A stretch of DNA of 64,000 bases from NCBI GenBank assembly GCA_033439765.1, contig JAULSN010000011.1:372001-436000 (forward strand). The letters are read 5' to 3'. The DNA is from Lasiosphaeria ovina. Lineage: Eukaryota; Ascomycota; Sordariomycetes; Sordariales; Lasiosphaeriaceae. Below, piece by piece: positions 35,530 to 64,000 of this stretch; within the stretch, counting starts at the first letter, position 1; each line of letters opens with the position of its first letter. The position numbers were made by a program, and so were the translations under genes. A model generated the notes under the pieces. The model ran no database searches, was not told the origin of the DNA, and was given only the letters and a program-made list of their open reading frames with translations.

Positions 35530-37721
35530 ATGGCCGACCCACTATCCATCGTCGCGGGCGTCACGGGCGTCCTGGCCTTCACAGCCAAGCTAACACGCGA
35601 GGTCATCACACTGATATCCGACGTGCGGGACGCGCCCGAAGAGATCATCGACCTGCGGTTCGAGCTGGAGCATCTGTCGTCGCTGCTGCACTCGGCGCAC
35701 GGCCTCTCGCTGCGCAACCCGCTGCGGCCCGAGGAAAAGCCGCTCGAGGCCACCGTCGAGGACTGCCTCGACCGGTGCCAGGAGGTCATGCGCGACATCA
35801 AGGACCGCCTGAGCTCGTTCCTGGCCAAGGGGAGCGGGCGCAGGAGCCCGCGCCGCTTCTTCAACTCGACGTACTGGTACTTCCGCAAGGGCGAAATCAC
35901 AAAATTCAAGGAGAGACTGCGGAACTCAAGAGCCATGCTCGACGTGTCTGTCAATGTTCTGAACGGGTGAGTGGCTGACCACAGGCTTTTCCCGGCAATA
36001 ATTATGCAGAGTTTGCTGATTGGAGGCGCAGACACTTGGTGGGCAAGGGCCAGCAGGAGATCAGAGACGAAATGGGCCGCGGCATGGACAGGCTGGCGTA
36101 CCTGTTTGAGAGCGCCGAGAACGCGCGCAAGTTCCACCGCCGGCTGCAAGACGACCTGGAGAGCGTGTCGGCGTTTGGAGGCCGGCGGGCGTCTGTGTCT
36201 GACGCAACCGACGCCGGCCTGCCGATGCGGAAATACCTCGAACAATACCATAACACTACCAGCCTGGCGCCTCCCACGGTGGCGATGCAGGAAGAGTGAG
36301 CATAGATCTTGTGCTGTACCGGTAATTATTTGAGTCAACGGGCTAACCAGCCTCTAGCTTCCTAGACGGCGAGAGCGTGACGCTGGCCTCGGCCGGCGAG
36401 ATGGTCGCCGAGGAGACACCGTCGCTCGTGCAAGCCGCACAGGCAGGTAACGCACAGCAGGCGCGGGCGCTGATATCGCTCGGAGCCGAGCCGTCGGCGC
36501 GGCTGCACGACGGGCGCACGGCGCTGCACTTCTGCGCCATCTACGACGACGTGGCCACGGCCGAGGTGCTTCTCGAGCACGGCGCCGAAGTCGACGCCAC
36601 AGACCAAAAGTCTCGGGCGCCCATGAGGGTTGCGCTGAGCAGCGAGTCGTACGCCGTGGCGGCGCTACTGCTGCGCAAGGGCTGTGCCGTCGAGAAGATG
36701 CTCCCCGCGCTGCTCGACGCTGTCAGGGACGGGGAAGGGATTCCAGGGTTCAAAGACTTCCTGGCCGCGCTGCGCGAGCGCCTCGACGTATCTGAGGGAA
36801 CACCGCACTTGTTGCATGAGGTGATTGGACGCGAGGACGACACGTCGCTGTGTCTCTTGCTCGAGGGCGGGTTCGACCCAAATACTCGAGATGCATGCGG
36901 TGAGAACCCCTATGCTTTCCTCCCCTGCCATCTCAACACCCGCTGACAATATTTCGTCTTTGCGCAGGAATCTCACCGATCCACCACGCCATCATCCTCA
37001 AGCGGCAGTCGACGGTCAAGCTGCTCCTCAAGCACGGCGCCGACAAGAACGACTACCTGCCGCCCGAAACCCACGACCACCTGCGCGACGACATTGCCTG
37101 GCACCGGCCGCTGTTCCCGATGCTCGTCTCGGGCATCACGCCCATCGCAACGGCCGCGCGGGCCATGTCAGACCCCGAAATGCTGCTGCTGCTGCTCGAG
37201 GCCGGGGCGGACCCCAACTGGGAGTACCCGTCGGATGGTAATCTCACCCCCCTCCCCCCCTGTAATTACCATGCCGTAACCAACTCTGACAAATTCCAGG
37301 CATCATCGCGATAATCGGCCTCTGCGCCGGCCAGTACCTGGACTCCGCCAAGCTGCTCGTCGACTTCGGGTCGCACGTCAACCACAAAAACCACACGGGG
37401 CACAGCGCGATGTACTGGGCGGCCGTGTGCGGCAACGACGCGCTACTACAGTACATGCTGGACCGCGGGGAAGGCGACCTGGGAATCGTGTGCGAGGCCG
37501 ACGGCCGCTGGACGCTGCTGCACGCCGCCGCGCACCAGAACCGCGCCGACGTCGCGCGCACCCTCGTCGCGCGCGGCGCGGATCTGCTGGCGCGAGATGT
37601 CAGGGGCCTGACGCCGGCTGATGTGGCGGTGGCGTATAGGAATGGGGATATGGCGAGGTTTCTGGGTGAGAGGACGAGGGAGGTGGTTGAGGCGTTGAGG
37701 GGTGGGGTTGATGAGGGGTGA
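35530..37721 (+). CDS. Ankyrin-repeat protein with a STAND/NLR-like N-terminal domain
   Basis: Five exons, 35530-35966, 36032-36295, 36358-36899, 36968-37237 and 37300-37721, give 644 aa in one frame. The N-terminus (MADPLSIVAGVTGVLAFTAK, then helical sequence to about residue 140) is the fungal N-terminal domain found on STAND/NLR-type proteins. A helical linker follows. From about residue 250 there are ankyrin units: DGRTALHFCAIYDDVATAEVL, ISPIHHAIILKRQSTVKLLL, TPIATAARAMSDPEMLLLL, SAMYWAAVCGNDALLQYML, WTLLHAAAHQNRADVARTLV and LTPADVAVAYRNGDMARFL. There is no NACHT or NB-ARC ATPase between them. Such proteins may act as adaptors or decoys in fungal innate recognition; no partner is visible next to it. 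Introns are short, with clean borders. Confidence 0.88.
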
Positions 37722-42413: not shown

Positions 42414-43005
42414 CGGAAGGGTTGACTATTAGAGTGGGTACATTTAGTTTTGTGATTATACATTTATCCTATGCCGGTATGACTCTGACGGTGCTGTTGA
42501 ATTGTTTGACCTTTTGCAGTACCGAAGCCTTGCGATGTCATGAAGAAGGCATGCCTCAGCGACAAGGAGAAGGTAGTGATAGGATGTATCAAGTTCTTCC
42601 TCTGTGGCGACAAGGCTAGGGAAGAGTTTGAAGACGAATCAAGCGGCGACGAGATCGATCTCAAAAAAGTCAAACACCAGTCTGGTATCAACCAGAAGCC
42701 CAAAAACGCCAAAAAGCATGGGTGGCCGACATGGTTGTGGGGAAAAAGATGCGCCGAGCGTTGGTGTGATGTGCGCCCCGCAGTTTTTGGAGGAGAGAAA
42801 CATCACGAGTCGGAAAAAGGTGCACGGAGCGTTCAGCTCGCGAGATCATGTGACATAACCCTGCAGCATGGACTCGACAAGATCCAGGTTGTCCAGAACC
42901 TGGCCAGAGCCGACCTGCAGAGCCCTGCCAGCAAATGGAACATGCGCCATTTGATCGCCTACAGGCTGCTTATCCGTCCGCAATCTGCGTTTCTTCCCGT
43001 CTTCG

Positions 43006-43674
43006 ATGCTCTCCACCGAGACGATTGTCCCGTATGCTACGACGACGGCCAAGGTGCACGCCACTGACGACACGGATTTGACCGGGGCTGTGCTGCTGGC
43101 ATACCGCGATGTCGAGCAGCAGCGCCGATCGCCTCGCACCACGGCCACCGCCGACACTTTTGCTCTTGCTGGCCCCGTCGACGATGTTGTAACGCGCGTC
43201 GCCCGCTACATGTTGGACTGGTATGACGGCCGCTGGCCCGATCGCACCGCCGGCGAGCTGCCCTGTGATGTCGGCAATGCAACTGAGGTGTGCATCCGCC
43301 GCTTCAAGGCCGGCGCCCATGTCCGCAACAGCGGGGTTGGCCACGGCCAAGCCGGAAACGGATCTCTGATGAGATGCATCCCCACTGCACTCTTCTGCGC
43401 CTGTCCGTCCGTTCGACCGTCCGGCTGGGATGCCGACCACGTGCAGGTCCGGATCGAGGCAGAATCCATGGCCATCTCGGCCATCACCCACGACGGCCTG
43501 CGCTGCACTATTGCTTGCGCCGCCTACAACACCATGGTGCATGCCCTCGTGCATGGCAGAACCCCCGCCGACGCGTGGCAGGCCGCCAAGGATGCTGCAC
43601 ATCGCTTGCGTGGTACCGCGAACTTCAACGTCTCCAGTTTGCATCTAAGTTCACCAGCATTATCGAGTACATGA
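43006..43674 (+). pseudogene. ADP-ribosylglycohydrolase-family fragment, cut at both ends
   Basis: A 222-aa frame. It has a metal-binding DDTD (HATDDTDLTGAVLLAY, residues 18-33) as in DraG/ARH enzymes, then the family's RNSGVGHGQAGNGSLMR (RGNGSLMR-like) block, then ESMAISAITHDGLRCTIAC, matching the conserved SxxTH helix. The usual N-terminal GxxxGDAxG motif about 50 residues before the DDTD is missing, and so is the C-terminal DxDT metal site, because the frame ends soon after the helical core. These enzymes remove ADP-ribose from proteins or nucleic acids. With half the metal site gone this copy is unlikely to be active as drawn; an unseen upstream exon cannot be excluded. Confidence 0.65.
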
Positions 43675-45797: not shown

Positions 45798-48264
45798 GAC
45801 TTGAGCGAGGACAAGGAAGCTGAACGGTGACGGGACAAGGAGCCAAGTAGTCTGGATCTTGTTCAATATGAACAGTTTAAATGCTGACACCGCCAAGGCT
45901 CTTGGGATAATCTGTTGCTCAAAGGAGTGGTGCCGAGGTCCCACTTTGCAGTTTAATTTATTTATTGCTATATAGGCATTTCCCAATATCGGATTGTCGA
46001 GACGGCAGTCATGGAGGCCCGGCAGGTGCGCCGGCTATTGACCAACTATCGGTAGATATTAGGAACCGACCGAAGGTTATCGCAGCAAGCTCAAACTCTT
46101 GCGTCGGATGTATCTTTTTGCCCAACACACTACCTAGCTAATCACACCCACCTAAAAAGAAGGTCTACGAGGGTTCTGGGGCAATTGTGTTCCAGATAAG
46201 TACTGGGGTCACCAGGGCCCGGATTTCCTAGTAATTCTTGGCCGCTAGCTACTTATGCCAACGTGTTTAACTGAGCTGGCACGCATGACGAAAGCGCGCA
46301 TGTGGCGCAAGGTAGATAATCCAAACAGGGAGCGCGATCTGGAGAGCCGCTGGCAGTACGAGATGGGAGTTTGGGAGTGTGGTGGCTGTGTAAAATGCAA
46401 CCCATCATGATCAGAAAACTTCGAGTTTTCCCCCTTATTCTTTATTCTTCCGAGCCCCGCCATCCTTATCCACACGTCCGTTTCTCCAGTGAGCCCCCAA
46501 TAATCATTAAATCGCCAAGGCGTTTCCTTAAGGTAGCCTTACACGACGTCTGTCTGCGTTGCCCCACTGCCTAACCGAAACGAACGTCCATGGGCGAAAC
46601 GCCTTGATCATCGCTTCAGCGCACGAAATATTTCTAAATTATTGTTAGCACATTGGGTACTGTTCCCGGGGTCGGCGAGGTGGACTTCGTTTGGACTAAT
46701 GCGTATGACGGGGCCTTGTATGTATGCAACGGGGTAGTTTAGAGGGGGTGAGACCTTGGAAATGGGCTTTGCAACGACATATGAATACGAGCAATGGTGT
46801 TCCGCTGCGGCGTGCAGGTTCCTCTCGGGCCATTGGCTACGAGTTGCTATATTGAGAATCCCGCCTAGACACATCTATAATGCATTGCATTCCGAGCATC
46901 TCCAGCGAATAGTGTTGCAGCTTCCTTGCCTAGGTACCTATCTTAAGTCTGCGGCTAGCCTATCTTTGAAGTATCTGTATGGACATTCTACCACCGTGAA
47001 TACGACATCAGTTTTGCGTTAACGGGAGTATCATTTTCGTCGGCCGCTCTAAATTTGCTCCCATGTCTCACTAATGACTTTGCCAGGACACATCGGCAAA
47101 TTTCCCATATCCCTTTCAACATGATGGGCAGAATATGATAAAAGCCAATAATTTCCATGCGGTATTCTCTTTTACTGGGCTAACGTAGGTAGAGTACACA
47201 TGCGACGCATGTGATTGAATCAGAATGATATATAGTCCAAGTAGTATCCCTTGGAGCGCAGGGGCTAATGTTAAGCAAGAAAGGATGACTAGCACGGAGT
47301 ACACGGCATTCCGCTACGAAGTAAACCCTAAGCTTATATGCTACCCTTGTTTTATCCCCTCATATGTTGACGAAATGATATATATAGCTTAGATACTGCA
47401 GAGAAACATGACATAGGGCCACTTTTCAGGAGTATTAGAATCCTTTCTCTCTTTCTCTTTCTCTTAGTAAATTAGGTGCATCTTAATTCTAATGTTACGT
47501 CCTCCACCTCGTTTCAGCGTCTTGTCACCACACACGGCCCATCCGTACAATAGCGAGTTGGAGCGTTCTGCAATAGCGATACAGAGTTAAGATAATTCCA
47601 CCCCACCACATTAGATGCCAACCACTTGGCCCCTAGCGCACATATGCTAGCTATTGTTGCTTTAGGTCTGCTAATTCTTGCGATTAACATTATTTTTCTG
47701 TTAGGCTATAACTGCTGCTGTCTTGGAACGTCTGTGTCCATGCAGGCTGCAAGTCTCTGCTCATGATTCCGAATCGCGGAAAAGTCCGATTGGTGACTGT
47801 GAATATCCCTTGAGAGATGATAGGCTCATGGGGTTTTCCTGCAGGCGGCATATGCATGATCTTCCGCTTGGCTAGCCCGGCTCACGAGACCCCGACTTCC
47901 CCTCACCTTTGCCTAATTCCCAACCCCAGTGATAAACTCGGCTGTGGGAGCGACTTCCAGTCCTCGGCCCCGGGGATTCGCTATTACTCCCTTGCTGAAC
48001 CTGGTAATCTCTGAAGCGTGGCACTTTTTGCGACGACTACACTGGGCCAGCCGCCCTGCAGCAGACTCAAGGACTCTAGGATGACGATCCCGTCTATATG
48101 GCCTCCAATGGCGATAGTAAGTCTTCCCAGATAGCGATGATGATATTTGCAAATAAATTGCTGATGATATTCAGAAAGATGCCACATGCATCTGGGTGTG
48201 TGTCTCGTGGCTTTTGTGCCACCGGTTGCTGGTTAATAGAGGATTGGTGCTCCGCGCCTCGGCC
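45798..48264. other. 2.5-kb gene-free stretch
   Basis: AT-richer DNA with only short frames. A (TCTCTT)n tract stands at about 47443-47466. No repeat family shared with the rest of the window was noticed. Confidence 0.45.
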
Positions 48265-49632
48265 ATGTCGGACGATGCCTTGGTGGGGTGCTTCGTTGGA
48301 TTCACATCGTCCATCTGGCTGGTAGTTGTTCTCTTCCTCGGCGGTGATTCGAGTCCTGTCGGCCAGCATTCCGGGATCGTCCATCTAACCCGGATTGTAT
48401 CCAGCCTTGCCAATGTGCCTGTACTTCCACTCGCCGTCTTTTTATTCTGGGTGTCCAGTAAACCTGGCACAAGGGCCAGCGGTACCAACACAGCAGTTGA
48501 TCATGTCACCTCCTCCCCAGCCTTTTTAGCCTGCTGCAGTATCGCTACTCTCATTCCTTCGTTAGCCTCCCTCGCCATTGGCGACTATACCACACCCATC
48601 CTCAACACGGCTGGCTTCCTCCTCTTCGCTCTCCAAGGCGTCCCTCGTCATCCGTACGACTCCGCCCGCCACCGCTACTCGGAAGACTATCTGCGTATTG
48701 CTCTGGCCACCGACCACCATGAGGGAACAGTCTACATCCTCCCCAGCACGCTAGGCGGCATGGACGCCGTGTGGTCGCCCAAAATCAGCAACGAGCACAT
48801 CGCTGTCGACAGGGAAATCATGACCCTCTTCCGCCACATGCGGTCCGACCGGTGGCACGTCGGCGAGCCCCTCGAGCGCCTCCGCCAAACCCTGGCCGCC
48901 TACCACGAGCGCGTCATGCTCTCAGCCGAGGGCGCCAGTTTCCTGGCCAGTTGGATCTATCTCGCGGACAGCCAGGAGCGCCCGGCAGCGGCAGAGAGAA
49001 TGTCAATGATACGCTGCGAGCGCGCCCCTGGCGTCCACCTAATCGGTCGCGATCTCATGTATGCCCTGTGCCACGCCGAGTACCTGGTTTTCATGTCTCA
49101 AGGCCGCCTGGCACCGGGCTATAAGGAGAAACTGGGCATGCTGCGGTTGATGTCCCGCAGCGGCGCCGCAAAGGGCGGCACCATCTCCGACAAAACCATC
49201 GGCTTCCGTCCGGGATTTGATGGTTACGCAGAGGCAGTGCGGCACGTCTACGCCATGTTCGGATACAATACAGAGCAAAACGACGCAGCTGAGGCGCTCG
49301 ACTTTACCGGCACACATCCTCCGGCGTTTTCCTTCGCGCTAAAAAAGGCGCCCGCGTCGATTGACGAGTATGTCACCGAGTTGTGGGATCTGAGCACTAG
49401 AAATACAGAGTCGACCTTTAGCGCGCTGTATTTTTTCACGACTGTGTGGTTCATGGAGCTAGGGAACGTTGGCGGATTCCATATCTTTCCGCTTCGGTGT
49501 CGTTCAAGGGACGGGGACGCGGCGACGCGGCTGCTGGCGTGGAGGCAAGTTTGGTATGCAGCATGCGTGGCGCAGTTGGTCTCGGTCTCGCCGGCGCTGT
49601 TGGGGTGGTTTGTGTTTGGTCTGGGGGCTTGA
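48265..49632 (+). CDS. Membrane protein of unknown family, tail to tail with the ankyrin gene
   Basis: A single exon of 455 aa from the ATG at 48265 (MSDDALVGCFVGF); the frame is open further upstream to 48196, so the start is open. Four hydrophobic segments lie in the first 130 residues: LVGCFVGFTSSIWLVVVLFL, VPVLPLAVFLFWV, ACCSIATLIPSLASLAI and ILNTAGFLLFALQGV. A long soluble part follows (about 140-390) with WSPKISNEHIAVDREIMTLF and YHERVMLSAEGASFLASWIY. The C-terminus has one or two more helices (VAQLVSVSPALLGWFVFGL). I do not recognise a family. Only 81 bases separate its stop from the stop of the minus-strand ankyrin gene, so it may belong to the same accessory locus, but that is inference. 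Confidence 0.65.
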   Translation: MSDDALVGCFVGFTSSIWLVVVLFLGGDSSPVGQHSGIVHLTRIVSSLANVPVLPLAVFLFWVSSKPGTRASGTNTAVDHVTSSPAFLACCSIATLIPSLASLAIGDYTTPILNTAGFLLFALQGVPRHPYDSARHRYSEDYLRIALATDHHEGTVYILPSTLGGMDAVWSPKISNEHIAVDREIMTLFRHMRSDRWHVGEPLERLRQTLAAYHERVMLSAEGASFLASWIYLADSQERPAAAERMSMIRCERAPGVHLIGRDLMYALCHAEYLVFMSQGRLAPGYKEKLGMLRLMSRSGAAKGGTISDKTIGFRPGFDGYAEAVRHVYAMFGYNTEQNDAAEALDFTGTHPPAFSFALKKAPASIDEYVTELWDLSTRNTESTFSALYFFTTVWFMELGNVGGFHIFPLRCRSRDGDAATRLLAWRQVWYAACVAQLVSVSPALLGWFVFGLGA

Positions 49633-49713: not shown

Positions 49714-51248
49714 CTATTGCAAATACGCAAAGACCAGTGCCTCATCCACAATCAGGATCTCTTCTTCGGTGATTCTGTACTTGATATCGATTCCATTCCC
49801 CTGGACGTTGACGGACCGGACTAGCAGATGTCGGGCGTCTAGTTGATACATGTACCCCTATTTACAACTATGTTAGTTGATAAACTCCCTTAAGTGGAGA
49901 TCAGGTATTGAAAAGAGATGGGGATATAAAACAGCTACGCACCGAATGTCGATCGCCAATTCTAATAGGAAACCAAGTCGGGGTGGGCTCGAACTCGGTG
50001 AGAACCTCGAGCTCAGGAAGATGCAGCATGGCGTCGTGTATCGCATTACCCAGTTCATGCTGAATCAAATCATGGAAGTGTTTCTCTAGAAGCTGCAGGG
50101 TCTGCTTTGGAATGGGCATGTGGATAACGGGTCGCAGAACCGGAATGAGGTGGCATACGTCGAGGTGCAGTGCCAGCTCGAGCGCCGACATGTTATCCCA
50201 GTCGAATTCGGTCCACAAAGTCCGCAACGTCCCTGTAAGGATGTGTTAATGCCACGAGACGGGGGGTTTAGGAGTAAAATTGGGGCCCTACTGGATGCTC
50301 CGAGGTCAATGAGCTTCTGAGTAACTTCCAGCGGGGCTCGCATGTAGACGGCCTGGTGTAACGGGGCCCAGCCAGCGACCAGGCCGGACTCGGCAAGTGG
50401 TTCTTGAATAGCGATCAGCAATGCCCGTAAGCTAAGAGGAACTGCCACTGCTTACTTAACCGAGAAGAGTTAACCCAGGACTCCCCATAGACTGAACAGC
50501 CAATGTCGATAAGACGGAACATGTCGTCCCAAGAGCCGTACTTGGCAGCGTCCGCAAGGCCCTCGCGATATTCTTGATATTGCTGCTCATGGCTGTCAAT
50601 GCGGATTTGGCCAGCCCATGTTCGCATCATCGGGTTGGAGATGGCTCTCTCCCCGCCTTCACTGTTCACCAGCGTGATATCCGAGAAAGCGTCTAGCAGT
50701 TCCGGGTGGGTTTCGCTCTGCCGTTTCTTATCTTCGGTATTCTTTGTCAGGGATAGGTTGCGCATTTGGGCCCATCTGGCATGTTTCATTGATCTGTTAG
50801 CGTTGGAGAGGAGATGCCCTTTGAGTCAAGTAACGCACACTGAGATAAGGTGGACATTACGCATAACGTCGGCCTGGGCGTCTTTAAGTCGCTTGACAAG
50901 GCCTTCGGTCGTCGAGCTCCCCAGTGTCCAAAGAATTCGCCTCATGAAACCTAGCTTGGGCTGACCGGCCGCAATTTCGGATGCGCGCGCCATAATCTCA
51001 TCAATCAGTGTTCGGAGAGTCTTCAAGAAGGGCTCTAGACTGAGAGTGAGGTCTTTGTATCCCACGTCGGCCATTTCCGTCATCGCCATGGACAGCAACT
51101 CGTTAGACTGTCTTACCTGCTCTACATGCTGAATCAGGCGCTTTAGGTCCTTTTCGGCGTGTGTGAACTTTTTGAGCTCAGCGACGGCTTTTGAGCACAG
51201 AGCAACGCCATCATTGACAAGGGAGACTGCTGCAAGCCCTTCTGCCAT
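49714..51248 (-). CDS. NLR-like N-domain plus ankyrin-like protein; partner of the ADP-ribosyltransferase-like gene
   Basis: Five minus-strand exons, 51248-50839, 50775-50456, 50402-50292, 50232-49943 and 49857-49714, join to 425 codons (424 aa). The N-terminus (MAEGLAAVSLVNDGVALCSKA, helical to about residue 137) resembles the N-terminal domain of fungal STAND/NLR proteins. There is no NACHT. Degenerate ankyrin units follow (GLADAAKYGSWDDMFRLIDI, WAPLHQAVYMRAPLEVTQKL, MSALELALHLDVCHLIPVL), then a helix (LEKHFHDLIQHELG) and a beta-rich end (HLPELEVLTEF through YQLDARHLLVRSVNV). The second half is homologous to the C-terminal half of the divergent gene at 51777, with introns at the same places and phases. 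The first intron's acceptor choice is the least certain border. Confidence 0.8.
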
Positions 51249-51776
51249 TACCAATTGAGTGTAGCCGACCGGGGCCAGTGAATATCCGATGCGAGTCAGT
51301 GGCGGCGGCGCCGGTGTGTCACGGCTAAAGCTGGGTAGTTGGGTTGTTCAATCGAAGATAAGCTATGGGGTAACTATCGTTGTGTTTCTCCTAGAACTCG
51401 ACCGACGAGGCTCCGGCTAGGCCCAGATCACGAGAGTTACGTCTTGGCCTCCATCCCCCCGGTTGACTGTGGCAGTGCCTGCAGATTAAAACGCCAAGGA
51501 CGGCCAGGCTAGCAAATCGCATTCTCGAGATCAGAGCTGGACCAAGCCGATGGGGAGCACAACATGGCCACATATGCAGGGGATGCATGAGTGTGTCCCA
51601 AAAGGGTCGCCGCCTTTCATGACCCAGCGCTTTGCTCCCCGATAGCACAAAGCACGCACACTGTCCGGTTCTTATCTAATTCCCTCAGCTTCACAACGCG
51701 GGTTCCATCTGATCCAGCTTTCCATCCCTACTTTGGTCCGAACTAGTGTCGAAGATATCTCCTACTAGCAACAAAC
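51249..51776. promoter_or_regulatory. Shared promoter region of the divergent pair
   Basis: 528 bp between two start codons that point away from each other. No further coding sequence was seen. A bidirectional promoter is likely from the layout; no specific site was recognised. Confidence 0.5.
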
Positions 51777-53949
51777 ATGGACTCGGCAGCACGGTTCTTT
51801 GACGAACCAGTTAGCACTGTATCCCTCCAAACCGCATTTTCTGGCGAGTTTGAGGGGATGCGCATGAAGAGTGTTCGGCCAAACATCACCAAAGTTCGTG
51901 AACTATGGAACTCAGAAGACGGGTATCGGGAGCTTACCCGTCAGTTCCAAAGGCTGGTCTTGGAGGAGCCCGATAATGAACTGTCGGCAAACGCTAGAGC
52001 AGCTCTCTCCCGACTCTTCGACGGCTACCGCGACTATGCCGACATGGCTCGCGCCCCGCTGCCTGCCACGTACCAGTTCGACGCCCTCGAGTTCTACTGT
52101 TCAGCGGAGGGATACGACTACGTCAGGCGCGTCATCCAGGACGTCTTTCGCAAGGACGATCCGTCTGACGACCGGCTTCTGCTCGCCACAACCCTTGTCG
52201 AGAGGATCACAATTGACCTCTACAACCTCCGTCTCTCGGAGATCGGCGACCCACGTTACGCAAACTTTGAGGGAATTGTCTACAGATGGATGGTCCTCGA
52301 TCAGGAGCAAGTTGCCGTGTATCGCGACATTCTCACCAGGCCCGACCGCTCTAAGCGCAACTTTGCCATCCCTCTGGGCTTCGCCTCAGCAGCGGGCGAG
52401 CTTGACACGACAAAACACTTTGCCGCCATACAACCACCACCAACAGCACCACATAATATCGAAGAGCAGCAGCAGAAGGTGCGCGTCCTGCAAAAAATCC
52501 ACATCCACGGCATCGACCCAGCCCTGCTAGCCGCATACAAGCAGAAATATCCAGACAGCGTTGTCACGTCCATCTGCGCCATGCCCGTGGCCCGCATGTC
52601 ACCTTTTAGCGAGAAGGAGATTCTCCTCCGGGGGCCTTTCTACCACCTCATCGCCATCAACGAGCGCGAGGACGAGGCCGGCCGCTTCGTGGAGGTGGTT
52701 GTGGCCAGCATGAACGCGAACCGCGACCACGGGTCGGAGCTATCGTCCAATGACGGTGTCAAGGCCCTGCAGCGCGCCGCCTTTCTCAACGCCGTGAATG
52801 CCTCCAAGTGGGAGGTCTGCGCCGCCATTGCGGCCGCCGAAAACTCGAGCCCCCTGGACGCGGCCGCGTATGAGAGGCTGCAGACGCAGACGCTGCAAAA
52901 GCTGGCCGATGAGTTTGGGATCTCGGCAAAGGTTGACGGCCGTCTGGCTGATGCCCAGTCGCCTGAAGTGGCCGTGTGGCTGGGTGCGCTCGGTGCGGAA
53001 TGCTATCCGCGATACTATGCGTCCCGCCGGAACGCGTGGCAGACGGCTCTGGCTTCTGGCCGCTGGGTGGATGCCGAGGCGGTCATAAAGGGTGAGTATC
53101 TGTGGGGGCGGAGCGAGTGGTACAACATTGGCCGTCTATTTGGTAAGTGCTTTCTGGACTTTGTTCATATTATACAAAGACCTAGATACAAAAAGGAAAA
53201 AAAGGGAAAGACTAACAGCGATATAATCTGCCAACTAGATGAGAATGAAACTATCGAGGGCGACAACCTGACGCTGCTCCACCAGTTGGTTAGGCATGCG
53301 CCCCCTACTGGGCTGATGGAAGACGTCGATGATGACAACTACCAGGCATGGAGGAGGCTCCTAGATGGAGCAAGTGACAATGGCGTCTGGAGTATATAAA
53401 CCCATTCACACGTTTGCTTGGTTGACCAATAAACCTGGCTGATAAATGATAACAGAATCTCTCAAATCTTTCGATGCCTCGGCTATGACAGCAGAGCAAC
53501 TCGCTTTTGATCTTGGTCAGTACTTGCTTGCGAAGAAACTCAAACCGCAAATATTCAACCGCATACCTCCCACGATTATTGAGCGCCTGGAAGCCAAACT
53601 TCACGGGCTTATGATGGAAAAGGCGGCATATTTTGTAAGACTACTCTACTTTGGCTAGCAAGGTGCATTTATTCTAAGACTCTTTATAGATCAATCCAGC
53701 CACATTTCACTTCCCTCAACTATCGGTCTTAGCAGAAATGCAACCTCCTGTTCTTTGGATTCCGGTCCCCCGCATGTATGGAGTAAGTTTACCAGAAAGG
53801 AATAAAGAGGCTTCGAAGGTTTATATTAACTTTCTCTTTTCTTTATACAGGGATTCTTAGTGGAAGCCCAAGGTCACTCTCTGAGTATCACTATTTTCGA
53901 GACAGCTCCAGGACATTACACATCTATTAAGACCGAAGTACAACTTTGA
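51777..53949 (+). CDS. Putative ADP-ribosyltransferase fused to an ankyrin-like C-terminal module
   Basis: Five exons, 51777-53142, 53239-53391, 53456-53634, 53690-53782 and 53851-53949, join to 630 codons (629 aa). Residues about 100-295 show the order of an R-S-E class ADP-ribosyltransferase: Arg170 in GIVYRWMVLD; the Ser motif at 201-204 in NFAIPLGFASAAGE; and an ExE pair Glu279/Glu281 in MSPFSEKEILLRGPFYHL, the position taken by SxxExE-type endings in the family. The assignment rests on motif order only. No signal peptide is seen, so it should act inside the cell. From about residue 415 on (GRWVDAEAVI, LTLLHQLVRHA, LEAKLHGLM, HFPQLSVLAEM) the protein is homologous to the C-terminal half of the divergent neighbour. 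Each intron has GT..AG borders and each join keeps one frame. Confidence 0.75.
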
Positions 53950-56747: not shown

Positions 56748-58015
56748 TCATTCGCCCGGACTCTGGGCACTGGTTCCCACAAACACCACCAACACCGCCG
56801 CATAAGCTGCGGTACTGCCCAACACATCCTTACCCTCGTTGAGAAAGTACGCCATGAGGATGCCAAAGCCCGCGACGAAGCCCGTCGTCGTGATTAGGCC
56901 TGTGTACTTTCCGCCCTGCAGCACCATTAACCACATGGGACCGATGAGAAAAGCTCCGCCAACCGCCGCGAGCAGGACGCGCTCCTTGAAGCCGTGGTAC
57001 CACGTCCTAGCGATGTTATCACTGCGGGTGCCGCAAATGGGCTCATAATCTTGCAAGGGGTCGTGTGACTTGAGAAACTCCCAGGGGCTGAGCGAGCCGG
57101 TAGACTTCATGCGGGCGTCATCGGCCAGGATCTTGTCAGTATTGCAGTTGAGCACATAGTTGTCGATGGCATACTCGCCTGTGGCCAAGAAGGGGTCGCG
57201 GATCGACTTGCTGCGTTTCTCCATGTAGTCATGGTCTTGCAGTGCTTTGACTGGGACGATCAGTCTGTGCCTTTTTCATCTTGCCCTTGATTCTCCTCCA
57301 GGACGAGCAGGGACCTGAAATAGAGAAGCATACTGTACTGCTCGAGTGTCTCCTCCCAGCCCGGCGACTCGTTGCCGTCGAGACGCATCTTGACCACGTG
57401 TCTGACGAGCTGACATTGTAGCTTGCGAATTCTCATCCGCTGTACTTCAGCAAATCTGATGCGAAAACGCTTCCCGTCACCGGACATGGCCGGTTTTGCT
57501 TGCTTTGGCGCCTCTTCGTCGCCCGGCTTGAAGCCCTGAAGCTTTTCCCTCATGCTGTCAAGTGTAGACCGAATCTTTCCAACCTCGTAATCCTTCAGGT
57601 GAACAACCAGACTGCTGCGGTGATGCCGTATGACCCAATCACCTGGGTTGTCACGGTTGAGATGAATCTTGCTTTTTGATGAACCTTGGGGTCGGTCATC
57701 TTGGGGCGTTGGTGTTTCGTCAGTGAAGGTAACTCTGCGCTGGCCTGGAGCTTCTCGGCTGGATGGTCGAGATCTAGTACTGCCAAAACTTTGGCGTAGT
57801 TGCGAGTCACTTGGAGCGCGGCTACGACTTCGCTTTCCCCTGTCGAGCGAGTGACTGCGGTGGCGAGACCGGATACTGTCCTTTTGACTGTAAGTCGGGC
57901 TTAGACTCCGACTTCGACTCCGATTTCGACTTCGAATTCGACTACGGCCACGACTTGGGGTTCGGGACCGCAAACTGGGAGGGTCATCGTCATCTCCAGT
58001 AGCTACCATTGTCAT
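56748..58015 (-). CDS. DUF6594-type membrane protein with RS-rich N-terminus
   Basis: Two minus-strand exons, 58015-57339 and 57264-56748, with a 74-bp intron (GTACAG..GCACAG), give 397 aa. Without the intron the two parts lie in different frames, so a frameshift is the alternative. The first 90 residues are a run of Arg/Ser dipeptides (RSRNRSRSRSLSPTYSQ), highly basic. The DUF6594 body follows: QRMRIRKLQCQLVRHVVKMR, a helix ending VPVKALQDHDYMEKRSKS, DPFLATGEYAIDNYVLN, then near the end GFKERVLLAAVGGAFLIGP, ITTTGFVAGFGILMAY and a last helix (AAYAAVLVVFVG), which are the family's three C-terminal membrane helices. The family is fungal and uncharacterised; many members lie near HET or ankyrin genes. 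The start at 58015 gives the best composition. Confidence 0.78.
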
Positions 58016-58319
58016 TTTAGAACGTGCGTGCCGTAGGATCAACATCCCTATCAATTTTTGAGGGTACGACATATACATCTCGAAGTAAATACCAAATTCG
58101 ACTTTTTCCTACCGCTCTTTGCATTCATTCTATAGCTATCGAGTCAATTGAAGTTATTACGACCTTCAAATATACGGAAATACTACTATTATATAGATAT
58201 ATTAGCCGGTAACGTAGGATCGATAGAAATAATAACCCTGGCCGGTATATCGTCCTGTAAGTTCAGTAATACCGTATTACCGTATTGGAATCTATAAGAT
58301 ATCTACTATACTAACTTGA
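58016..58319. other. Transition into the mutated repeat
   Basis: CpA and TpG become rare from left to right. No gene was seen. Probably the promoter of the DUF6594 gene followed by the edge of the repeat. Confidence 0.45.
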
Positions 58320-58559
58320 TCGTACCGCTATTATAGTTACTAGCTAATAAGAGTAATAAAGCCTTCCTTCTATCGGGATTAAGCCTATTCGACTTATCTT
58401 ATATTACCCTAATAACCGATATCTTCTTACCCGGCTACGCGCGAGCCGCTCCCTACGCCGTAGCGTTACTTTCGATTTATCTATTCTATACGAATTAGGC
58501 GAACCCCCTATAATACCCGCTAGGAAGAAGGGTAGTATTATATCTAAATCCACTATAAA

Positions 58560-58860
58560 GGCTACCCCTTAGTCTAGTATATATAAAAATAACGGCTCTT
58601 ATAATACCGCTATTACCCGCCGGGAGGCTATAGCCAAACCTTCTAGGGGTAGAGGCCGGGGTAGAGGTAGGAAGGCGGCTCCCGAGCCCTCTCCCGAGCC
58701 CTCTCTTAAGACCTCGGGCACCGAGGCGGTTACCGAAGTAGGCACGGAGATAGGTGCCGAGACCAATACCGAGACTTGATAGGCTAGCGAAGGTAATGAT
58801 ACCTCGGTAGATAACGAGGAGGAAATATAATATAATATAATAAAGAATACGGGGACGACT
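58560..58860 (+). other. Stretch coding RGRGRGR-like and Glu/Thr-rich peptide on the plus strand
   Basis: On the plus strand a frame reads AKPSRGRGRGRGRKAAPEPS then SLKTSGTEAVTEVGTEIGAE before stops. It has an AT-hook-like basic core. It runs against the direction of the gypsy element, so it may be part of a second relic, such as the end of a gag, or of the LTR region. Too mutated to assign. Confidence 0.35.
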
Positions 58861-58929
58861 AATAACGAAGAAGACTCGTATTCTCCTTAACCTTCTAAGC
58901 TCTTCGAGGAAGACTTTAGCCTTCAAATT

Positions 58930-59215
58930 ATATTAGGCTTCCGCTTTATTAAGAATACTATCACCGCACAGTCGATTTAATGAGATAGGGCTATACCAAT
59001 CATCGCTGTATTCGTAGAATCTAAAGCTAAGGAAAGAAAAAGAAAAGAAAGTTCCAAAAGGCTACGCGGTACGCGGAGAAGTGGGCTAGGTTTTGTGGGT
59101 TATGTAGCAGGACTTGGCACGGGCCACTAATAGCGGGGTTGCTTAGTCAGCTCGAGTCGTGTAGCGTACGACCGATTAGGGCCACCCAAATGTCCTTCGT
59201 ACCTGCCGTAATACT
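58930..59215. other. Unmutated island inside the RIP-saturated repeat
   Basis: CpA and TpG return to ordinary frequency here (for example CAGGACTTGGCACGGGCCAC near 59107), in contrast to both sides. No coding sequence was recognised. Confidence 0.5.
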
Positions 59216-62200
59216 ACCCCCGGGTTAGAAAAAAGCTTCGCCTCGAAGCTTAACCCCCCCTAGCTTATCGACGTCGGGTTATCCTACGTAGCGGATGACC
59301 TTTTACTATAGGTTTATTATCGTCTTAGTATAGTTCTTTAAACCTATCCCCCTTAGCTACTTATAGCTACTTATCGAGCTATACGGGCGGTCCGGCTTTA
59401 TCGGGGTAGGTATCGTAATATTCTTTTAGGAGAATTAGGGAGTTCTTAAAGTCTTCGGCGTAATACTAGGTGGCGTCGGGAGCCTACCCGCGCTATTGAA
59501 CTTAGTACTAGAGTTTTCTATAATACGACCGCGATATTAATACCTATTCTACGATCTATTCTTACTTATTATTAATCGTCTCTCCTTCCGGGTTTGAGTC
59601 CTCCTAATTAGGTAGTAGGTTATTTAGGTATAAGCGTAGGCGGTCCGCGTAGAATACGTCGGTCCCTCGTTATCCCTTAGGTATTTCTAGTTTATAATCG
59701 TACCCGTTAGGGCCGGACCTCTCTAGAACCTTAAAGTATTATTATATTAGTAGGAAGTCTAGTTTTGAGCTAGGCCGATCGGTCGATTATATCTTTTTAA
59801 TTATATAGATTTAGTTACTAATATCGAAGTTAGGTATTCGGCGGTACTTATTAGCTTCCTAGGTTTGGCGCTCTTATACCTTTATAATAGTATCCTTTAT
59901 AGTATTAATATATCCCTCTAGGGTTTTAGCTATTTCCTAGGCCTCTTATCGGGTTATCTTCTCTAATTATTAGAGGTCGGGGTCGGAGAGGTCCGTTCTT
60001 TTTATCTAATTATAGTATATTAGTATAGGGAAACTAAAAAGGACCTCGTACGGTTAGAGTTCTATATTATCTTAAGGAGTTAAATTCTAGACCGCGTTTA
60101 TAACTAGTATAAATTTTGACTAATTATCCTAATAGTAAGAGATAAATATTTATAATCGTTAATCGATCTACTAGTAGAGGTTTTCTACCTATCTTACGGT
60201 TTTTTATACCTAGAGGATAATAATTTCTAATAGATCCCTAGGAGCTTTATTAACTCGTTTATAAATTCAGAGATAAACTAAGGACCTCGATCGCTAATAA
60301 TTTTAAAGGGTAACCCGAATATACGATATAGTCCCTTATAATATATATAGGCGACCTCGATTATTATAATAATAGAATAATACGGTATATACTAAGAGGC
60401 TTTACTTAAGCGATTAATAATTATAAAGAGGTTATCGTACCCGTATTTATCCTTTAATAGAGACTTGAAGTTAATAACTAATCCGCTCTAGATTCTCTAA
60501 GGTAGTAGAATCGGGTATAATAGACTAAGAGTCTTATCTCGTAGGACTTTAGTAGATTTATATTTATAATTAATAACGAATCTATTTATATTAGTACTTA
60601 GACCCGCCTATTAATAGAGTTCCTTTAATATTTTCCGTATTTTATTCCTTCTAGGGTAGGCTAAGGGAAGTCGGGAATATATTTTATCGATAATTCGAGT
60701 ATATAATTACGCTACGTCTAGTACGACGAGCCTATTATTCCTAAGGAGGAGGCCGTTACGAGTTATCGATAGCTAGTTACCTTCCTAATCTTTAAGTACC
60801 TTTATATAATAGACTGATAGGGAATTATCGGATCTATTAGCTTTAAGTAGCTTATTAAGGAGTTTATACCCTAAAGACGACGGTACTTCTAAGATTAGGG
60901 CTATTAACGGCGTTACCTCTATTATTAATAAGTACTCCGTCGTCTTTACTAATACGCTATCGTAATCCTATTAAAATATCTAGATAGTATAATAGGCGTC
61001 CTATCGTTCCTTTTAAGTCTTTAGTTCGTAAGAGCGTCGGGTTAGGGCGTCTACCGTAGCGTTTAGCGCTCCCGGACGATAGAGTATTTAGAAGTAGAAA
61101 CTAGTAAGTTCTTCTACCTAACTAGCCTACCTTATATTAAGCCGCTATTTAGTTATAAAGTACTTAAGTATATCGTTATCCGAGAAGATAATAAATAGCT
61201 CTTCGTACTATAGGCCTACTAGCTCGTTCCGCTAATATTAGAGAGATCGGATAATCGCTAGTAACTCCTTATTATAAATAAAATAGTTAAGTTTAGCCCC
61301 CTTTATTATTTTAGAATAAAAGGCTACCGGGTACTATTCGTCTCCGTATTTCTAGCTTAAAACTCTAGTAATTACCCCTCCCGAGGAGTCGGTCTTAATA
61401 CGGGTTTCCCGACCGTATTCGAAATACTTTAAGACTAATACTAATATTAGACGGGCTTTTAACTCGTCGAAGGCTAGTTAATAGTCGTCGCTCTATCTAA
61501 ATACTTCCCCTTTCTTCGCTAGAGCTACGAGCGGCTTTATAACCTAACTATAGTTACGAACGAATCGGCGGTAGAAGTTATAGAATCTAAGGAAGGATTA
61601 TACTCCCCTTAGATCGTTCGGCTCCGGCTAGTCTCGTATAATATCCGTTTTAGAAGGATCGACCAATACCCTATCGACTCTAATAATAAAGCCTAAATAC
61701 TTAGTTTCCTTTATATAGAATTCGTACTTATTTATATCGGCCTATAGGCCGGCCTCTTATAATCTTTATAGGATAAGTCGTATATAACGGACGTACTCTT
61801 CCTCGGAGTCTAAATAGACTAAGATATTATCGAGGTAAGCGCTATAGAAGTCGTCGAAGTAGCCTATTAAAGAGTTATTAATAAAACGTTAAAATATTAC
61901 TAGATTATTAGTAAGGCTAAAGGGTATAACCTTATAGCTAAAGGTCCCGTAACGGGTATAAAACGTTATTAATTACTCGTCGTTTAGATATATATAGATT
62001 CTATAGAATACTTAGCGGATATCGATCTTTATAAAGATACGGGCCTTACTAATACGATTAAGCGTCTTATTAATTAGAGGTAAAGGTATTCGGTCTTTTT
62101 CCGTTAAGGCGTTTAGTTTACGATAATCTATATAGAAGCGTAGGCTACCGTTACCCTTTCTAGCGAAGAGGATAGGGGCGGCCTATAGCGTACTACTTAT

Positions 62201-64000
62201 TTAGATAAAACCTTTTTTAAGGGTATTAGTAATATATTCCCGGTATACCTCTAGTTCCTTAAGAGATATCTTATATAGTAAGCTATATCCTAAGTCCTCT
62301 AGCTTCTTCTTAGGTAATAACCTAATTTAGTAGTCGACTAAGTCGCGTTAAAGTATAAGGATATTTAATTAGACTTTATTAAAAACGTTTAGGAAGTCGT
62401 AGTATAGGGATAGTAATTTAACGATAATTTTTTTATATAGTATATTATCGTCTTCTTCTAGACCGGTGGTTTTAAGCTTATTAATTCACTTATCGAGCTC
62501 GTTAAGAGTTATAACCTCGACTTATTCCCCTTTATACAAGAGTCGGAAGGCCGTCTTACTTAGTATAGCTATCTCGGTAGGGCGCTCTTAGTACTAGCTC
62601 ATCCTATTACGTTATATATAATAAGGACCTCGCGCGTCCCGTTTAGGGTATAAGGGCTTCTTCTTCTATTCTTCGGGTTCTAGCTTCCCTAGCTACTCCT
62701 TCTACGATAGATTAAGTTCTTTCTTTATACGGTTATATTCTCGCTTAGTACGATTACCGTTAATCTATCGTACTAACCTCTAGAGGAGGGTAGGTCTAAA
62801 ACTCAGAGTAGCTCTCGTCGGGGTGAGTTCTTCCTTAGGGTTATAAACTATAAAGTTATTCTAGTTCTGGCGTTCGAGCTCGTTTATACGAGCCCGTACG
62901 AGCCGGCCGTCTCGGCGACGCTTATCCTCTTTCTCTAGGAGCTCGTTCCGTTAATAGGCGTCCTATTAATAGTCTATATTATGGACGGAGGCTACTAAAG
63001 ACTAGTCTATAAGAATAGTATTCTACTAGCTTAGATCGAGTTCCTAGCTCTTTAGGAATAGAAGGCGGTAGCGTTTTATATTAATTAAGATATTATAATA
63101 ATCTAACTACTTCTAACCGATTATAACTTTATAAATATAATCGATTTCGATAAAGCGTTCTTCTTTAATCGTACGGTTCTATATAATAAAGTCGGCGCTT
63201 AAGAGTATATTAATTTTTTAACGGGATTTATTATCGAACCCTCCTACTTCTCGTATATAAGGGTCGATCGTCGATTTAGCTTATATTACTTTACGTAATT
63301 ACTATACGAATATTCGGTTAATAAAGAGGTATCTATTTACTCTAAAGTCCATAAATATATTATTTATAATTAAGGAAAGTCTATTATTTATTAGAGTATA
63401 ACTAATAGTAAAGGCTTACCCTCTTAGATATTTAGAGAGTAATCCTAGTTCTTTCTTACTTATAGCCCCTATTATATATACCGACTCGGTCCTTAGGAAG
63501 GAGTCTATTTACCCTAGGGTTACTAGTTTTTCGGATCTACGTCTATTCCCTTAGCGGCGGGGCTTATAGGCTATATCTCGGTTCTAGATCTATAGCGGGA
63601 GTCGTACTATATATAGCGATCTACGATTTCCTAAACTCGATCCTTACCGGCGATAGGGGCGATATTCTTCTAGGGGTAGTCCCGAGTAATATAGCCTTAT
63701 TCCTAGTAAGTAAAGTATCGCTTCTTTAGGTATAGCTTCTTAAGCTCCTCGGCTAAGGCGCGAGGGGGGTTCCGGTTAGGATTCGCGGGAACGGGGGGCG
63801 TAGGTTAGCTATCGGTTCCGCTACCACCTCGGGGGTTACGTCGAGGTACGCCCTAACTACCTCTAGAGCTACTATTAACGCTACTAGTAGTAAGCTTCTC
63901 TATCTTAGCTTTATTAGCCTATCGTACCTTCTAGGCAAGCTTTATATTTAGCGCGAACTCGGCTCCGATCTTAGCGTACTTCTTAAAGTTAACGGTATCG

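Follow-up and report, generated by a model that had tools for sequence, protein, structure and literature searches.

The stretch analysed here (the window) comprises 64,000 nucleotides of the Lasiosphaeria ovina (Sordariales) genome, positions 372,001-436,000 of contig JAULSN010000011.1 in an assembly of 51.7 Mb. It contains two divergently transcribed genes (Table 1). The gene on the plus strand (plus gene) encodes a predicted ADP-ribosyltransferase (ART), the gene on the minus strand (minus gene) encodes its partner with a candidate HeLo-like N-terminal domain, and both proteins end with a module of ankyrin repeats and a beta half. The model of the minus gene is identical to the deposited protein P0051. 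The plus gene matches the deposited L. ovina protein P0001 with 100% identity across 95% of the query. P0001 (622 amino acids) is spliced differently at the 3' end; relatives, such as P0002 and P0018, run on with GGFLI or GGFLV, and thus the model of 629 amino acids is better supported.

Table 1. Features of the divergent gene pair and of neighbouring gene fragments (window coordinates)
Feature	Position	Strand	Details
ART gene (plus gene)	51777..53949	+	5 exons: 51777-53142, 53239-53391, 53456-53634, 53690-53782, 53851-53949; 629 aa (amino acids); spliced model
Predicted ART catalytic domain, about residues 86-345	52032..52811	+	R170 at 52284, S204 at 52386, E279 at 52611, E281 at 52617; codons checked
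Ankyrin + beta module of the ART protein, C-terminal, from AVWLG	52971..53949	+	four introns within; hhalign to bacterial and minus modules
Interval between both start codons	51249..51776	.	528 bp; candidate shared divergent promoter region, from gene models
Partner gene (minus gene)	49714..51248	-	5 exons: 51248-50839, 50775-50456, 50402-50292, 50232-49943, 49857-49714; 424 aa
Helical N-terminus of the partner, candidate HeLo-like / PF17111-type domain	50839..51248	-	exon 1; hhalign to PF17111 pieces
Ankyrin + beta module of the partner, C-terminal, from RTWAG	49714..50624	-	from gene model
Truncated ADP-ribosylglycohydrolase piece	43057-43632	+	profile 38-188 of 287; 53% identity over 195 aa to an intact-looking gene on contig C12
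SDA1-like HEAT fragment	42510-43064		adjoins the glycohydrolase piece

The C-terminal parts of the two proteins are homologous. Alignment by hhalign of the modules from nine minus-family and 13 plus-family members covers 197 columns (probability 99.4, E 5.7e-22), compared to a probability of at most 3.94 in 50 column shuffles and 0.36 with the reversed profile. Thus the similarity noticed in the initial annotation is confirmed and extends over approximately 200 residues. Two introns coincide exactly in column and phase, one of phase 1 before K/R-(S/T)L(K/R), the other of phase 0 before GFLV/GYMY. Before LHQ each gene has a phase-1 intron, but the two positions differ by one codon, so that of the three matching introns claimed initially two are exact and the third agrees in phase only. 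The plus gene has one extra phase-0 intron inside the module. Under a simple placement model, the probability of at least two exact coincidences is about 1e-4.

When P0001 was compared with the whole genome (E up to 0.01, best candidates), the single match beyond its own exons, which include the deposited last exon, was the minus gene (34% identity over 83 amino acids, E 1.6e-6). The minus protein, under the same conditions, matched itself only. The bacterial query P0061 produced six places in the genome and no clear third module: the top place (E 2.6e-4) is an ordinary ankyrin protein, the partner gene scored E 0.04, and the list did not contain the ART gene. Since the partner gene scored so low, a third divergent copy could be missed by this query. 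In the tree of modules, constructed with P0013 left out, the plus and minus modules form separate, fully supported groups across species, with no sign of sequence exchange between them. The tree is unrooted and has three groups, and which two of them are sisters is not readable from it. A recent duplication within L. ovina was rejected because of these separate groups. Thus the initial suggestion of a partial duplication of one gene, or of both having taken the same module, stands as far as the homologous module is concerned, whereas the event itself should be older than this suggestion implied.

In many bacteria the module occurs as a standalone protein of about 220 amino acids, with ankyrin repeats and a beta half containing WFPVPGMYGGF. 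Both fungal tails are aligned with it over nearly the full length (hhalign E 1.4e-44 for minus and 7.8e-30 for plus; probability at most 1.86 in 40 shuffles). Judged by these alignments, the shared fungal tail is a complete bacterial-type standalone protein, which had been overlooked in the initial annotation. The bacterial members of this family of 'ankyrin repeat domain-containing proteins' are mostly separate, whereas the fungal ones are intron-bearing tails with several invariants changed. A viral occurrence of the module was considered and rejected, as 46 pattern matches in viral contigs gave four confirmed loci, all with the ankyrin half only (residues 7-83 or 34-113 of 219).

The plus protein is predicted, by its fold, to be an R-S-ExE ADP-ribosyltransferase with complete catalytic residues, in agreement with its initial putative assignment. 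The model of the ART domain has a pLDDT of 82.4, and its structure matches include R-S-E ARTs. The catalytic R, S and E-x-E are present in 50 of 50 plus-family relatives among the matches listed. The enzyme would be a mono-ADP-ribosyltransferase of the ExE type, which is known as arginine-specific. The predicted fold and the R, S, E-x-E residues are shared with HopU1, Vis and the ART of 6dre; unlike these, the protein is fungal, is fused to the C-terminal module and has only a sub-threshold Pfam match. No Pfam ART family was found above the cut-off (ADPrib_exo_Tox at E 0.013 in one of 22 members), and a sequence search of solved structures found no ART. The 50 Foldseek rows listed for the ART model contain many lethal-factor chains as well; lethal factor is a protein with an ART-like domain. 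No export signal was noticed by eye. In the deposited protein P0013 of Zalerion maritima the ADP-ribosyltransferase is joined to ferrochelatase, probably by a gene-model fusion.

The first 137 residues of the partner can be aligned, profile to profile, with PF17111 pieces (probability 97.4, E 1.4e-11, 135 columns), the controls being at most 1.24 in 50 shuffles and 1.96 with the reversed profile. The comparison set consisted of 11 of the 21 same-genome PF17111 matches and the distant relative P0059, which has an hmmscan PF17111 match at 7.5e-11. By profile, the N-terminus appears to be a HeLo-like / PF17111-type domain, and it may form pores. Residues 196-315 have an ankyrin fold, that is, C-terminal repeats as in fungal NOD-like receptors (NLRs). 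The partner was initially described as an NLR-type sensor. This assignment was rejected: none of the eight minus-family members scanned has a NACHT or NB-ARC hit in Pfam, and none of the nine has the P-loop pattern GxxxxGK[ST]. Given the HeLo-like N-terminus of the partner, both proteins would have effector-type N-terminal domains, rather than one being a sensor and the other an effector. At 35533-37721 (+) of the window, ankyrin-repeat exons come after one more N-terminal domain of the PF17111 kind.

Plus-family matches listed number 50 and include 15 named taxa; nine minus-family proteins from six named taxa are listed (the distant P0059 and P0061 left out). Both genes reside on contigs of identical size in five taxa: L. 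ovina, Rhypophila decipiens, Naviculisporaceae PSN 640, Zalerion maritima and Nemania FL0916. They represent Sordariales, Lulworthiales and Xylariales, all Sordariomycetes (PSN 640 placed by family name). Linkage beyond L. ovina is read from equal contig sizes and, in PSN 640 and Zalerion, from consecutive locus tags; the orientation is seen in L. ovina only. Thus the pair recognised initially in one genome appears on one contig in five genomes of three orders. The lowest identities among the five are 43% for the ART part and 36% for the partner. The identities of the two proteins correlate (r 0.92 over 10 pairs), as expected from common descent alone, and this correlation was not used. In Knufia obscura (Eurotiomycetes) the partner alone was found among the matches listed. 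The protein search with the partner alignment scored about 8000 candidates and for this reason did not return P0055-P0057, although they belong to that alignment; non-detection in Xylaria, Fusarium and other taxa is thus not the same as absence.

The neighbourhood of the bacterial module was analysed with a rough open reading frame caller; outside Mycobacteriaceae, the survey covered annotation or Pfam of plasmid loci and a few neighbours. ADP-ribosylglycohydrolase domains (PF03747) were searched for in the genomes of 41 of the 45 genome loci. A match was found anywhere in 34 of the 41, and beside the module, by coordinates, in seven: L040, L045, L046, L049, L054, L058 and, as a fragment, L057, all from Mycobacteriaceae. 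The search of all 50 loci by tblastn found a glycohydrolase gene in the same seven and in no other. In L040, L045, L049 and L054 the match adjoining the module is the sole one of the genome. The L046 protein is a glycohydrolase (E 7.7e-53) and also has a stretch resembling a phosphatase, slightly below the Pfam cut-off. An NrtR-type regulator is present in six of 50 loci (one by Pfam; tblastn), and a SIR2_2 protein adjoins in L054. Thus there are two ties between the module and ADP-ribosylation, its fusion to a predicted ART in fungi and its position next to an ADP-ribosylglycohydrolase in mycobacteria.

Some other bacterial and archaeal arrangements of the module were observed. An apparent second standalone copy lies beside the first at 7023-7796 of L046 (Mycobacteriaceae), as judged by eye. 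In an archaeal metagenome-assembled genome (L061, 659-1957) a single frame encodes an ARPP-1 domain (E 1.3e-81) and, after it, the module's C-terminal half. On the Deinococcus plasmids L012 and L013 the genes preceding the standalone module are those for a methyltransferase and a YhcG-type nuclease and one more, which in L012 is annotated as specificity subunit.

These observations are best explained, with a probability of about 0.45, by an intracellular unit of two genes acting in conflict or cell death, where the same bacterial-type module would be fused to an ART in one protein and to a HeLo-like domain in the other. Both modules may bind the same ligand, or one another, and thereby coordinate the two N-terminal domains. 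The trigger would be non-self, infection or damage. The ART would then modify one of the host's proteins; the role of the HeLo-like protein would be to signal or execute death, or else to restrain the ART until the trigger appears. The pair may have the recognition-and-kill role proposed initially. A probable role of the module is that of reader or adaptor for ADP-ribosylated proteins or ADP-ribose, given that some of its bacterial relatives adjoin an eraser, the glycohydrolase, and the fungal copy is fused to a writer. The cell-death context is plausible, since L. ovina has 162 NLRs, the highest number in the Sordariales set of PMC12258605. A more detailed scenario, that fungi took a reader module linked to ADP-ribosylation from bacteria and duplicated it, thus creating an NLR-free immune unit with an endogenous ART and a HeLo-like death domain under matching sensor tails, is doubtful.

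Several observations weigh against the two-gene conflict or cell-death unit. Several bacterial invariants of the beta half are lost in fungi, R195 being present in none of nine minus and one of 13 plus modules, and S200 in none of nine and none of 13; thus a conserved ligand pocket is doubtful. The link between the module and the glycohydrolase is confined to Mycobacteriaceae (seven of 50 loci). In place of the S-(S/T)-(S/T) of most relatives, the L. ovina ART carries S-A-A. The structure model of the N-terminal part of the partner is of low confidence, and hmmscan gave no PF17111 match in any of eight minus-family members (E 0.1). Finally, R. decipiens and PSN 640 have second partner-like genes on other contigs.

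The existence of such genes away from the ART, together with the lack of exchange between plus and minus modules in the tree, would be expected if the two genes had acquired their common module from a single ancestor in fungi and were mere neighbours that do no joint work. This is very unlikely, as the linkage is retained in three orders despite the low identities given above. A somewhat unlikely alternative is a toxin and its antidote, that is, an addiction- or spore-killer-like unit where the ART is harmful alone and the partner neutralises it via a contact between the modules. It would account for the divergent linkage of the genes and the homology of their tails; ankyrin proteins (Imm-Ank) are listed as immunity proteins in bacterial polymorphic toxin systems (PMC3482391), and the solved ART toxin/immunity pairs 6dre, 6drh and 8za7 are among the structure matches. 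However, an antidote needs no effector-type domain, and the partner has its own. Besides, there is no PF03747 hit in any of the eight partner-family members scanned, which distinguishes the pair from toxin/immunity pairs of an ART and an ADP-ribosylhydrolase, and in particular the partner is not an ADP-ribosylglycohydrolase, unlike, by its title, the immunity partner of 8za7. The pair also spans three orders, unlike most selfish killers.

An ordinary regulatory ADP-ribosylation system, acting in stress or metabolism with the partner as a scaffold and with no role in conflict, is unlikely. NrtR-type regulators are known for NAD metabolism, and their presence beside the bacterial relatives, the wide spread of the pair and the lack of a further paralogue among the best genome matches agree with such a role. 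On the other hand, it does not account for the HeLo-like N-terminus of the partner, and glycohydrolase-centred systems have been proposed as conflict systems (PMC9503650).

The L. ovina genome contains three PF03747 matches, one of them 6 kb from the pair. The latter was considered as a third member of the locus and rejected: it is truncated and is treated as a broken duplicate. It and the adjoining HEAT fragment appear to be a series of broken gene copies. A frame of 491 amino acids with no Pfam match is open at 48157-49632 (+), beside the 3' end of the partner gene. At 58001-64000 the G+C content drops to 34-42% and is thus lower than elsewhere in the window.

Among known arrangements, the one most similar is that of HET-S/NWD2, sesA/sesB/STAND and their kin, described in PMC3321046 as adjacent, sometimes divergent effector and STAND genes with a homologous part, whose adjacency is conserved between species. 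The L. ovina pair is similar in having adjacent genes, a common homologous part and effector-type domains. However, the common part in those systems is a short amyloid motif, whereas here it is a folded bacterial-type module of about 200 amino acids. They also have one STAND/NLR partner, and no nucleotide-binding domain was found in the L. ovina pair; the latter includes an ART, and its modules group by gene family, not by cluster. The mycobacterial loci resemble the core described for conflict systems centred on ADP-ribosylglycohydrolase, which consists of an NrtR-type regulator, the glycohydrolase and a phosphatase (PMC9503650); the word 'ankyrin' is absent from the main text of this paper. 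The fungal locus differs from these systems, as it has no intact glycohydrolase gene, only the truncated fragment 6 kb away. No description of a fungal pair of an ADP-ribosyltransferase and an ankyrin protein was found in the search listings of open-licence literature.

In the best reading, the two effector-type domains would bear a common regulatory module. The fungal effector pairs cited above are built on NLR/STAND proteins and short amyloid motifs, whereas in the L. ovina pair no NLR was found, the ART is apparently intracellular, and two effector-type domains appear to be joined to one bacterial-type folded module. If this is true, fungal cell-death genes would be linked to the bacterial ADP-ribosylation conflict network. 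The pair would also offer a way to study a bacterial module that is widespread but has no name, and whose fusion with a writer and proximity to an eraser make the role of an ADP-ribose reader directly testable.
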